From Rhodanobacteraceae bacterium (lineage in GTDB: Bacteria > Pseudomonadota > Gammaproteobacteria > Xanthomonadales > Rhodanobacteraceae), in assembly GCA_004299705.1 (NCBI GenBank), contig SCQS01000060.1:1-64000 (forward strand): 64,000 bases of DNA. The letters run 5' to 3'. The position numbers and the translations under genes were made by a program. The notes beneath the pieces are model-generated. The model did not search any database and was not told where the DNA came from. It was given only the letters and a program-made list of their open reading frames with translations. Shown here in pieces: positions 7,469 through 22,159 of the stretch (position 1 is its first letter; the number at the start of each line of letters is the position of its first letter).

Positions 7469-7542
7469 TGGAGGCCAGGGTCGGAATCGAACCGGCGTAC
7501 GCGGATTTGCAGTCCGCTGCATGACCACTCTGCCACCTGGCC
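7469..7542 (-). tRNA. cysT: tRNA-Cys (anticodon GCA)
   Basis: 74 nt with encoded CCA. The acceptor stem GGCCAGG pairs with CCTGGCC, the discriminator is U as expected for cysteine, the anticodon loop reads CTGCAAA (GCA), and the T-arm is GTTCGATTC. Its 3' end is the left chromosomal border of island 1. In the ancestral order it would follow tRNA-Gly by about 100 bp, but an 11.7-kb island now separates them, so its original promoter is distant. Confidence 0.97.
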
Positions 7543-7616
7543 GGTGACCGGAATGCAGTGTGCGCGTGCGCAATCCGCATTCCAATCGAAACCACGTTGC
7601 GCGGCTTCGAAACAAC

Positions 7617-7638
7617 AGACCCCGGCGTACCGGGGTCT
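7617..7638. terminator. Strong hairpin between island 2 and tRNA-Cys
   Basis: Perfect 9-bp stem AGACCCCGG/CCGGGGTCT with a CGTA tetraloop. On the minus strand it is followed by TGTTGTTT. It lies in the ancestral tRNA-Gly/tRNA-Cys spacer. It could be a terminator or an RNA-processing hairpin of the tRNA transcript. Confidence 0.5.
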
Positions 7639-7645
7639 CGAAAAC

Positions 7646-7666
7646 TGGAGCGGGAAACGAGACTCG
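7646..7666. repeat. att site (distal end of island 2)
   Basis: A perfect 21-bp copy of the 3' end of tRNA-Gly, including the encoded CCA, exactly 11,700 bp from the matching copy inside the tRNA gene (19346-19366). The match stops abruptly on both sides, as expected for a recombination core left by a tyrosine integrase. Confidence 0.9.
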
Positions 7667-7790
7667 TACCTTTCCCTGAAACATAGCATTGACGCGGGTT
7701 TCTTCAAAACACCGCGCCCACGACTCCCTACCCGACTCCCTTCATTAAAGCTCCCCTCGTTGTGCCAAGGTCGACACAAGTCATCGCGCC

Positions 7791-7796
7791 ATTATA
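7791..7796 (-). promoter_or_regulatory. Possible outward promoter (-10 TATAAT) toward tRNA-Cys
   Basis: A perfect TATAAT on the minus strand overlaps the end of the GIY-YIG gene. The -35 region is poor (TTGCGT at a 19-nt spacing, or GCGTTT at 17). If active it would transcribe out of the island toward tRNA-Cys. Weak evidence. Confidence 0.25.
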
Positions 7797-7800
7797 CAGG

Positions 7801-19301: not shown

Positions 19302-19345
19302 GGGAGCCTTTCTGACTGCTTGTGCGCCAGCCTGAAACAGTGTCT

Positions 19346-19421
19346 TGGAGCGGGAAACGAGACTCGAACTCGCGACCCCGACCTTGGCAAGGTCGTGCTC
19401 TACCAACTGAGCTATTCCCGC
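19346..19421 (-). tRNA. glyW: tRNA-Gly (anticodon GCC), island 2 attachment site
   Basis: 76 nt with encoded CCA. GCGGGAA pairs with TTCCCGC, the D-arm is AGCTCAGTTGGTAGAGC, the anticodon loop CTTGCCAAG gives GCC, and the T-arm is GTTCGAGTC. Its last 21 nt are repeated at 7646-7666 as the other island border. It lies 36 bp downstream of pgsA, as in E. coli. Confidence 0.98.
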
Positions 19422-19457
19422 GCGAGCCGGCAATCATACGTGGGCCGGGGTTCCGGA

Positions 19458-20075
19458 TCAAGCCTCCGGCGAGCCATCATCCCCCGGCATCCGGCCGCTT
19501 TTCAGCACCGGCCAAGCGGCGCGCAGGTAGGCCAGCCCGGACCAGATGGTCAGGATCGCGGCGATCACCAGCAGTACCTCGCCCGCGTACCAGGCGCGCA
19601 GCAGGGTTGCGTCCTTGTCGCGTTCCCACAGCAGGATCAGGATCGCGACGATCTGCATCACGGTCTTGAGCTTGCCGATCCACTGCACCTTGACCCGGCC
19701 GCGCTCGCCGACGAAAGCCATCCACTCGCGCAGCGCCGACACCGTGATCTCGCGGCCCACGATCACCGCGCTGGTGACGGCCAGCAGCGCGGTCGGATGC
19801 GCCTGCACCAGGATGAACAGCGTCACCGCGATCATCAGCTTGTCGGCGACCGGATCGAGGAAGGCGCCGAACGCCGATTCCATGTGCCAGCGCCGCGCGA
19901 TCCAGCCGTCCAGCCAGTCGGTGACCGAGGCCAGCGCGAACACGACCACCGCGGCGATGTTGGCGGCGCGCAACGGAATCATCGGGATCGCGTCGTGCGA
20001 ATAGAACACCACCACCATCACCGGCAGCAGCAACACGCGGAACAGGGTCAGCCATGTTGGCAGGTTGATGCGCAC
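19458..20075 (-). CDS. pgsA: CDP-diacylglycerol--glycerol-3-phosphate 3-phosphatidyltransferase
   Basis: 205 aa, makes phosphatidylglycerol phosphate, the committed step of acidic phospholipid synthesis, in the inner membrane. The CDP-alcohol phosphotransferase motif is complete: DWLDGWIARRWHMESAFGAF followed by LDPVADK (D-G-x2-A-R-x8-G-x3-D-x3-D). Four or more membrane segments follow. GTG 20075 (VRINLPTWLTLFR) is preferred because GGAG lies 8 nt upstream and it matches the family N-terminus; the open frame begins at 20126. It lies downstream of uvrC and upstream of tRNA-Gly. Confidence 0.95.
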   Translation of the reverse strand: MRINLPTWLTLFRVLLLPVMVVVFYSHDAIPMIPLRAANIAAVVVFALASVTDWLDGWIARRWHMESAFGAFLDPVADKLMIAVTLFILVQAHPTALLAVTSAVIVGREITVSALREWMAFVGERGRVKVQWIGKLKTVMQIVAILILLWERDKDATLLRAWYAGEVLLVIAAILTIWSGLAYLRAAWPVLKSGRMPGDDGSPEA

Positions 20076-20139
20076 GCCGCGTTCTCCGGATCGATCAGGC
20101 ACCTGATTCGCGCCATATGTCGGCAAGGATCTTTGTTCT

Positions 20140-20264
20140 CGTCATTCCGGGGCGCCTGCGGCTTCATCGCAGGCGAACCCGGAATCCATTTTCTCATTCG
20201 GCGAAGATCAAGATGGATTCCGGGTTCCGCCCGCAAACAGCGCGGCCGGCCCCGGAATGACGAC
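20140..20264. repeat. Dispersed palindromic element, family A
   Basis: About 125 bp, beginning CGTCATTCCGGGG and ending with its complement CCCCGGAATGACG, with internal GGATTCCGGGTTC motifs. Related copies are at 25814-25940 and 38253-38453, and a shorter one lies in the 5' part of hsdS. It occupies the pgsA-uvrC spacer. Confidence 0.8.
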
Positions 20265-20338
20265 GTAAAAGATTCTTGCGTCACACTACTCCAGCAAGTG
20301 TGGCACAACGTTCGCGAACCGTCAGGAAGGCTGACCGG

Positions 20339-22159
20339 TCACCCATGCAGAAACGCATGGATGCGCTCGGCCAGTTCGCGGTTGATCCCGGGCACGCGGC
20401 ACAGCTCCTCGACGCCCGCGCCGACCACGCCCGCGTGGCCGCCGAAGGTCTTCAACAACGCCGAGCGCCGCGCCGCGCCGATGCCTGGAATGTCTTCCAG
20501 TACGCCGTGTTCGCGCGCCTTCTCGCGGCGCTTGCGGTGGCCGGTGATCGCGAAGCGATGCGACTCGTCGCGCACCGCGTCGATCAGGTGCAGCGCCGGC
20601 GAATCGGGGCCAGGCTCCAGTTCGCGGCCGCTCTCGCCCAGCACCAGGGTTTCCTCGCCCACGCGCCGCGACGGCCCCTTGGCCACGCCGACCACCGTGA
20701 TGCCGGCAAGCCCGAGTTCCTTCAACACGTCCAGCGCCTGCGCCACCTGGCCCTTGCCGCCGTCGATCAGCAACACGTCCGGTGCCTCGCCCTCGCCACG
20801 CGCCAGCGGTTTGAAACGCCGTTCCAGCGCCTGTCGCATCGCCGCGTAATCGTCGCCGCCGGTAATTCCGCGGATGTTGAAGCGGCGATAGTGGTTCTTG
20901 AGCGGACCTTCCGGGCCGAACACCACGCACGACGCGACGGTTTCCTCGCCCAGCGTGTGGCTGATGTCGAAGCACTCGACGCGCATCGGCATCTCGTCCA
21001 GTTGCAGCAGCGTGCGCAAGGCCTCGAAACGGGTGTGCAGTGTTTGCCGGCTCGAGAGACGCGCCAGCAACGCGGCTTCGGCATTGCGCGCCGCCAGCTC
21101 CACGAACCGCGCGCGCTCGCCACGCACGCGCCATTTCAGCTCGACACCCTGCTCGCGGCGCGTGGACAGCATGTCCGCGAGCGCCGCGGCATCCGCGGGC
21201 TCGCGCTCGCAAACCACCTCGGCGGGCGGCGGTTGGTCGAGGTAATACTGGGCGAGGAATTGCCCCAGCACATCCTCCGGCGTCGCATCGAAGGACAGTT
21301 TCGGAAAATGATCGCGCGAACCGAGGCTGATGCCGTTGCGGAAAAACAACACCGATACGCAGGCCACGCCCGCTTCCGTTCGGCACGCGATCACATCCAT
21401 GTCCGCGCTGGCGCCACGCACGTAGCTGTGCGCCTGCAGGCTGCGCAACGCCGCCACCTGATCGCGCAGGCGCGCCGCGCGCTCGTAATCCTGCCGCGCG
21501 CTCGCGGTTTCCATCGATGCCGCCAGTTCCTTCACCACGGCGTCGCTACGCCCGTCGAGAAACATCACCGCATGGCGTACGTCCTCGGCGTAATCCGCGG
21601 CGCCGATGAAATCCACGCACGGCGCGGTGCAACGCCCGATCTGGTATTGCAGGCACGGCCGCGAGCGGTTGCGGAAATAACTGTTCTCGCACTGCCGCAC
21701 CTTGAACAGCTTCTGCATCAGCGCCAGGCTTTCGCGCACCGCATGCGCGCTGGGGAAGGGCCCGAAGTAGCGGCCCTTCTCGCGCTTGGCGCCGCGATGG
21801 AACACGATGCGCGGGAACGGATCCTCCGACACGAAAATGTACGGGTAACTCTTGTCGTCGCGCAACATGATGTTGTAGCGCGGCTTCAGCGACTTGATCA
21901 GCTGCGCCTCCAGCAGCAGCGCCTCGCCCTCGGTGCGCGTCAGCGTCACTTCCATCCGCGCGATCTGTGACACCATCGACGCGATGCGCGGCTCCAGTTG
22001 CGGCTTCAGGAAGTAATTGCTGACCCGCTTCTTGAGATTGCGCGCCTTGCCGACGTACAGCAACGCGTCGTCCGCGCCGAACATGCGATACACGCCGGGC
22101 GAAGTCGTGAGGGTGCGGACAAAGGCCTTGCCGTCGAAGGCCGCAGCATCGGATGGCAT
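20339..22159 (-). CDS. uvrC: Excinuclease ABC subunit C
   Basis: 606 aa, the dual-incision nuclease of nucleotide excision repair. The N-terminal GIY-YIG domain is clear (PGVYRMFGADDALLYVGKARNLKKRVSNYF, quoted in part), followed by the Cys-bearing region, a UVR motif, the RNase H-like UvrC domain (VECFDISHTLGEETVASCVVF, quoted in part; ITGGDDYAAMRQAL; LLIDGGKGQ) and C-terminal helix-hairpin-helix motifs (LEDIPGIGAARRSALLKTFGG). The length matches the family. It is transcribed toward pgsA and the tRNAs. Confidence 0.98.
   Translation of the reverse strand: MPSDAAAFDGKAFVRTLTTSPGVYRMFGADDALLYVGKARNLKKRVSNYFLKPQLEPRIASMVSQIARMEVTLTRTEGEALLLEAQLIKSLKPRYNIMLRDDKSYPYIFVSEDPFPRIVFHRGAKREKGRYFGPFPSAHAVRESLALMQKLFKVRQCENSYFRNRSRPCLQYQIGRCTAPCVDFIGAADYAEDVRHAVMFLDGRSDAVVKELAASMETASARQDYERAARLRDQVAALRSLQAHSYVRGASADMDVIACRTEAGVACVSVLFFRNGISLGSRDHFPKLSFDATPEDVLGQFLAQYYLDQPPPAEVVCEREPADAAALADMLSTRREQGVELKWRVRGERARFVELAARNAEAALLARLSSRQTLHTRFEALRTLLQLDEMPMRVECFDISHTLGEETVASCVVFGPEGPLKNHYRRFNIRGITGGDDYAAMRQALERRFKPLARGEGEAPDVLLIDGGKGQVAQALDVLKELGLAGITVVGVAKGPSRRVGEETLVLGESGRELEPGPDSPALHLIDAVRDESHRFAITGHRKRREKAREHGVLEDIPGIGAARRSALLKTFGGHAGVVGAGVEELCRVPGINRELAERIHAFLHG

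Follow-up and report, generated by a model that had tools for sequence, protein, structure and literature searches.

The stretch of DNA analyzed here (the window) comprises the first 64,000 nucleotides of a contig from a Rhodanobacteraceae genome (G000:C51:1-64000), and its left edge is the contig end. ARAGORN and Pfam place uvrC (20339-22159), pgsA (a CDP-OH_P_transf frame ending at 19458), tRNA-Gly(GCC) (19346-19421, complete) and tRNA-Cys(GCA) (7469-7542) on the minus strand, the leftward order reported by an initial annotation of the same DNA. The two protein-coding genes lie upstream of tRNA-Gly, and their products are collinear with relatives. The two tRNA genes are 11.8 kb apart, and each is the target of an island equipped with its own tyrosine integrase. 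We are confident, if short of certain, that these islands represent two unrelated tRNA-targeting integrative elements occupying two neighboring tRNAs, which together constitute a composite insertion hotspot. The initial annotation had proposed such a hotspot, and both the attachment (att) repeats and relatives with an unsplit tRNA pair bear it out.

Island 1 (7646-19345; 11,700 bp) resides in tRNA-Gly and has a direct repeat at both borders. Its integrase-proximal att copy is the 3' end of tRNA-Gly itself (19346-19369, minus strand), and its distal copy is an orphan tRNA-Gly 3' end (7646-7669, minus strand) that matches at 23/24 nt, at a spacing of 11,700 bp. The 398-aa integrase (17951-19147, minus strand) contains Arm-DNA-bind_3, Phage_int_M and Phage_integrase domains above Pfam cut-offs. 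An integrase at a tRNA 3' end, repeats at both borders and an unoccupied site in relatives are hence all seen for this element, in agreement with the 11.7-kb island initially annotated at this position. Between the orphan repeat and tRNA-Cys lies a 103-bp spacer (7543-7645), which is kept whole in the window and corresponds to the distance of about 103 bp that the two tRNAs had been expected to show without the island. Within this spacer, a fixed-rule scan located the native terminator-like hairpin of tRNA-Gly (7617-7638, minus strand), now behind the orphan att copy; a like hairpin lies directly 3' of the complete tRNA-Gly in relatives. The assembly is fragmented (78 contigs), and the left edge of the window is the end of one of them, so that one might suspect a mis-joined island between tRNAs that are really adjacent. 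We find such an artifact scarcely credible, however, because a single contig spans both island 1 att junctions and also contains the tRNA-derived repeats, the complete tRNA-Gly and the native hairpin in its displaced position, and because assembly completeness is 99.99%, with 1.35% contamination.

The second island starts, as annotated, at the 3' end of tRNA-Cys, which forms its integrase-proximal att copy (7469-7492, minus strand), and its 419-aa integrase (6027-7286, minus strand) presents the same three domains above Pfam cut-offs. The distal att copy, which the initial annotation had suggested seeking farther left, lies outside the window at G000:C76:176751-176774, as an exact repeat (24/24 nt) with sufE and cysS to its left. 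In the window, the island encodes type I restriction genes identified with Pfam/PADLOC, hsdR (2943-5828) and hsdS (1414-2946), and a PARIS (AriAB)-like ATPase fragment (122-1299), all on the minus strand. The fragment (PADLOC AriAB, E 9.7e-56, profile positions 207-425 of 570; Pfam AAA_21 and DUF4435) runs into the end of an insertion sequence (IS), which we take to be IS30-like, at the contig break (1-118). To the right of the repeat on C76, the 5.5 kb up to the contig end hold hsdM, AbiEii- and AbiEi-like genes and two further open reading frames (ORFs), one for a 455-aa protein without Pfam match and one of 139 aa.

The first 118 bp of the window have a 100% match at the beginning of contig C32 and an 86% match in C25, where the copy includes a transposase-like ORF with a Pfam rve match below cut-off. 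Because the two ends of the C25 element match, in one orientation, the right end of C76 (71% over 109 bp) and the left end of the window (86% over 105 bp), the two contigs are most likely neighbors within island 2, separated by one IS30-like element. The total length of the island is estimated at about 13.8 kb (7.5 kb, 5.5 kb and about 0.8 kb unseen). The end of C76 further resembles the distal end of a tRNA-Cys element in a relative of the same genus (G014; 78.6% over 215 bp), the distal end in a second relative (G015) being alike by eye, and in the island-free G005 a gap of about 250 bp separates tRNA-Cys from sufE, which is followed by cysS, the same flank as on C76. Several observations weigh against this reconstruction. 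C76 and the window contig are not physically joined in the assembly, and the IS matches of 71% and 86% mean that two different IS copies are possible. A stretch of C76 that could encode the C-terminal part of the PARIS-like protein has no PADLOC match, sufE lies about 13 kb past the distal repeat in G015, and no sufE was found near tRNA-Cys in G001 or on the short G013 contig.

Comparison with a sample of 15 relatives from the genus revealed an unsplit tRNA-Gly and tRNA-Cys pair near pgsA in 12 of them, at distances of 69-209 bp, consistent with the unoccupied state that the initial annotation had predicted for island-free relatives. The pair is collinear with pgsA in 11 relatives (12 loci, also 69-209 bp apart, with two loci in G009). 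In G011 it is inverted relative to pgsA, with 104 bp between the tRNAs; this inversion with respect to uvrC-pgsA (G011:C318) is either real or a chimera of the assembly, on a contig of 3.2 kb. Neither tRNA was found in the stretch examined around pgsA in G003 and G007, and the locus of G010, which has only a weak pgsA match, was left out of the comparison. Since the repeats are tRNA 3' ends beside integrases and the pair is unsplit in 12 of 15 relatives, the island borders cannot be ascribed to chance. Between pgsA and tRNA-Gly, 1.8-5.4 kb of other DNA were observed in G014, G001 and G004.

A survey of 233 family genomes for a tRNA-Gly 3' end located 60-120 bp before tRNA-Cys found this spacing in 73 genomes, 71 of which have a complete tRNA-Gly there. 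The exceptions are the genome under study and G033, whose match lies 59 bp from the contig start, where tRNA-Gly cannot be complete. Given that the G033 match is limited by the contig start, only this genome is split among 72 informative genomes; the remaining 160, in which the survey pattern is absent, are uninformative on splitting.

Elements at tRNA-Cys were also identified elsewhere in the genus. On a single contig of G015, two exact tRNA-Cys copies spaced 12,847 bp apart enclose an element whose integrase is 96% identical to that of island 2, and G014 harbors at tRNA-Cys an integrase with 94% identity, the distal copy there looking one base short. In both genomes tRNA-Gly and tRNA-Cys are still neighbors. 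The hsd genes of island 2 have no match in G014 or G015, and the cargo of tRNA-Cys elements therefore differs. More distant integrases follow tRNA-Cys in G002 (52% identity) and in G088, from another genus of the family (57%). In G004 (C128, ~3738-3763, reversed orientation), an hsdR gene 95% identical to that of island 2 lies 20-25 bp past tRNA-Cys with no integrase in between, and we regard this locus as an immobilized or rearranged relative of the island. A second tRNA-Cys-like copy 29 bp past the first in G005, and a 16-nt tRNA-Cys 3' fragment about 170 bp past tRNA-Cys in G006, are possible scars of lost islands. As island-free, Cys-only and Gly-plus-Cys states all occur in one genus, the insertion steps can be compared directly.

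The two integrases share their domain layout and orientation and lie in tandem, as might be expected of one composite element whose integrase modules entered or accreted together, for instance as a large island later split by recombination. Their sequences, however, are 35-36% identical, and each island has its own att pair, derived from a different tRNA. Moreover, G014 and G015 have the tRNA-Cys element next to a Gly-Cys pair that is not split, and a TrbL/VirB6-like protein of island 1 has no match (E ≤ 1e-10) outside this genome in 230 family genomes. A composite origin hence appears very improbable. The preferred reading of two independent elements, already put forward in the initial annotation, agrees both with the low identity of the integrases and with the occurrence of their nearest relatives at different tRNAs.

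Matches to the island 1 integrase (E ≤ 1e-60) are present in 49 of 197 family genomes, and 30 loci were examined. A tRNA is present in the stretch in 26 of the 29 foreign loci, and tRNA-Gly is never the closest one. The 12 closest relatives (43-59% identity) all lie at tRNA-Leu (10 GAG, 2 CAG). Taken together, the position of the nearest relatives and the lack of any with tRNA-Gly nearest suggest, from sequence comparison, that the island 1 integrase switched target in this lineage. Other island 1 cargo is not shared by the 12 Leu-site relatives, except for RadC in L166; matches to hsd genes occur in L166, L170 and L172. The island 2 integrase has matches (E ≤ 1e-100) in 89 of 197 family genomes, and again 30 loci were examined. 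Its near copies (94-96%) are those at tRNA-Cys in G014 and G015, and relatives at 52-61% identity lie at tRNAs for Thr, Met, Leu, Phe, Val, Lys and Cys, with three having no tRNA in the stretch. In G129, a 57% relative occupies tRNA-Leu(TAA) of a Gly-Cys-Leu cluster, and all three tRNAs of the cluster consequently serve as sites somewhere in the family.

The initial annotation had further described the tRNAs as parts of one transcription unit, and this claim is not supported here, on account of hairpins in the Gly-Cys spacers, a promoter-like site of tRNA-Gly and the location of tRNA-Leu(TAA) elsewhere in the genome. A terminator-like hairpin followed by a T-run was found in 32 of 33 Gly-Cys spacers (30 loci kept of the 73 survey matches, this genome included, plus G014, G008 and G009b), compared with 215 of 3,300 shuffles, all of them mononucleotide shuffles. 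Upstream of tRNA-Gly lies a promoter-like site of its own (TTGATC-17-TATGAT, 19433-19461, minus strand; 9/12, shuffles mean 0.0), which 2 of 500 shuffles equaled and which has a similar sequence, by eye, in genus relatives. tRNA-Leu(TAA), which had been looked for beyond the left edge, is on contig C45 in this genome, and it lies close behind tRNA-Cys in G008, G009b and G129. tRNA-Gly and tRNA-Cys thus look separately transcribed. Two points speak against this conclusion: the G014 spacer is without a hairpin, as the sole exception, and no tRNA-Cys promoter was recognizable, 229 of 500 shuffles being as good, so that it is the upstream hairpin that argues for separate transcription of tRNA-Cys.

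The same lack of a recognized promoter in the spacer would fit a true Gly-Cys operon, in which the insertion of island 1 separated tRNA-Cys from its promoter; tRNA-Cys at this site would then be silent, unless an island promoter or the second tRNA-Cys of this genome, which is present in a 35-tRNA array on contig C59, makes up for the loss. One lead to an island promoter is a promoter-like site with an extended -10 at the end of island 1, directed toward tRNA-Cys (TTGAAG-16-TATGTT), a candidate that was set aside, with 55 of 500 shuffles as good. Against an operon stand the hairpin found throughout the Gly-Cys spacers, with the one exception, and the retention of the whole spacer in the window, and we deem it unlikely; separately transcribed tRNAs remain our preferred reading.

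Each island also carries a hairpin and T-run of its own just inside its tRNA-proximal border, at 45 nt in island 1 (19281-19300, minus strand) and at 34 nt in island 2 (7411-7434, minus strand). We assessed the generality of this feature on 46 integrase loci (60 loci minus 6 without a tRNA nearby and 8 duplicates), which include the two of the window and the near copies in G014 and G015, using a home-made terminator rule with a stem of at least 6 pairs (at least 5 pairs, and therefore looser, for the spacers above). A hairpin starting 31-47 nt past the tRNA was detected in 32 of the 46 loci, compared with 18 of 920 mononucleotide and 35 of 920 dinucleotide shuffles. Control windows contained such a hairpin in 0/46 cases inside the integrase gene, 2/46 after it and 7/46 upstream of the tRNA; when the 46 flanks were read on the opposite strand, 16 passed the rule. 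The hairpin of island 1 is nearly identical to that of a 59% integrase relative at tRNA-Leu in L073.

We tentatively propose, leaning slightly toward doubt, that tRNA-targeting elements with integrases of this group bring along an intrinsic terminator, portable and placed 31-47 nt past the tRNA that they rebuild, and that the island 1 integrase switched from tRNA-Leu to tRNA-Gly with this terminator kept. This grading applies to the proposal as a whole, that is, to a portable terminator that would replace the displaced one, insulate the integrase gene from the strong tRNA promoter and spare neighboring genes polar damage, together with the target switch. Weighing against the terminator reading, 14 of the 46 integrase loci have no such hairpin, and the fixed-rule terminator scan missed the island 1 hairpin while finding both hairpins near tRNA-Cys. 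If true, a portable terminator would explain how adjacent tRNAs of one cluster can all be occupied by elements and escape polar damage. It also suggests that, besides an integrase, a harmless stay in a tRNA cluster may require a replacement terminator, a property that can be tested.

Under our preferred reading, each integrase joined its element to a single tRNA by recombination at the tRNA 3' end, rebuilding that tRNA and leaving an orphan 3' fragment at the far end, as the repeats and the relatives with an unsplit pair show. Island 1 moved tRNA-Cys 11.7 kb away, along with the 103-bp spacer and the native terminator-like hairpin of tRNA-Gly. Because the two tRNAs look separately transcribed and each island has a hairpin 34-45 nt inside, the insertion was probably harmless, the hairpins themselves being seen and their terminator function predicted from sequence. 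If ICEKp1 is a guide, transcripts that start at the tRNA promoter and run through the hairpin may result in low integrase expression. Island 2 also carries defense genes, namely hsdRSM, a PARIS-like gene cut by the IS30-like element and an AbiE-type pair.

The remaining cargo of island 1 includes a replication-initiator-like helix-turn-helix (HTH) protein (16623-17438), the TrbL/VirB6-like protein (14838-16088), a RadC-like JAB protein (9941-10858), a DUF6573 protein (9497-9928), a weak GIY-YIG match below Pfam cut-off (7801-8442) and proteins without family match. The TrbL-like protein itself has no family match in profile searches and is named after its homologue on C59 of the same genome (37% identity), the only one at E ≤ 1e-10 in the 230 family genomes, which adjoins Trb-type secretion genes and whose own TrbL match is below cut-off. 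One Pfam scan covered ten ORFs and assigned no family to six (8464-9378, 7801-8442 and 13669-15348, and, on the plus strand, 9443-9967, 15697-16899 and 16554-17582), of which the three plus-strand ORFs are probably not genes. No relaxase family was detected among the selection of ORFs scanned, and one TrbL-like protein was seen. Plasmid searches returned no match for the TrbL-like protein and partial matches in 9 records for the HTH protein. Island 1 also contains two 34-nt palindromic repeats (10856-10889 and 10930-10963; 97% alike, 74 bp apart), possibly an operator or recombination site, and a search for their 24-nt core (≤2 mismatches) in this genome and 196 others of the family gave no further occurrence. 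On C59 (144 kb), the 35-tRNA array (G000:C59:7328-10378) includes second copies of tRNA-Gly(GCC) and tRNA-Cys, and Trb-type conjugation genes lie at ~62000-77000 with a secretin and a PilO-like gene close by; the region looks like a large mobile element with many tRNAs. Unconnected with the islands, ARAGORN predicts a tRNA-Thr(GGT) at 34226-34302 on the plus strand of the window.

Islands that target tRNAs are of a known kind. We found no description of an occupied Gly-Cys tRNA pair among the titles and abstract beginnings returned by a few searches of partial coverage, and the case in which both neighbors are occupied is one that we did not find described. In Escherichia coli, glyW, cysT and leuZ form a tRNA operon in this order, with uvrC and pgsA. 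Relatives of the genome analyzed here similarly present tRNA-Gly(GCC), tRNA-Cys(GCA) and, in some cases, tRNA-Leu(UAA) after pgsA and uvrC, but in this genome tRNA-Leu(TAA) lies on another contig, and a hairpin separates tRNA-Gly from tRNA-Cys in 32 of 33 spacers. PARIS is reportedly found in phages and P4-like satellites. The PARIS-like gene seen here resembles that setting in that an AriAB-like ATPase gene lies in a tyrosine-integrase island, in this instance with hsdRSM; unlike in phages and P4-like satellites, an IS30-like element interrupts the gene and the island resides at tRNA-Cys.

A closer parallel for island 1 is found in Pseudomonas aeruginosa, where PA2584 is presumably pgsA. The tRNA-Gly gene PA2583.1, located between PA2583 and PA2584, is an insertion site for islands of the RGP27/RGP29 type (PMC4243448). 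Both there and in the window, an island occupies tRNA-Gly beside this gene, but the P. aeruginosa regions span about 80-106 kb (PMC4243448), compared with 11.7 kb here, and in the window the neighboring tRNA-Cys is also occupied, by a second element.

For the putative terminators, the nearest counterpart is ICEKp1, in which the tRNA-asn terminator has been moved to the opposite end of the element, with integrase transcription driven from the tRNA promoter and stem-loops that attenuate integrase expression ahead of the gene, with similar reports for ICEclc and ICEEc1 (PMC13023037). As in ICEKp1 and ICEclc (PMC13023037), the window presents a displaced native terminator and an integrase gene that is codirectional with the tRNA and lies some 160-200 bp beyond it, with stem-loops in between. 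Island 1 combines the displaced terminator with a hairpin before the integrase gene, and island 2 has the hairpin only. tRNA-driven integrase transcription was measured in that study (PMC13023037), whereas the resemblance of the window is one of anatomy, and in contrast to the stem-loops described there, the hairpins seen here look like compact intrinsic terminators confined to a narrow range of distances from the tRNA.

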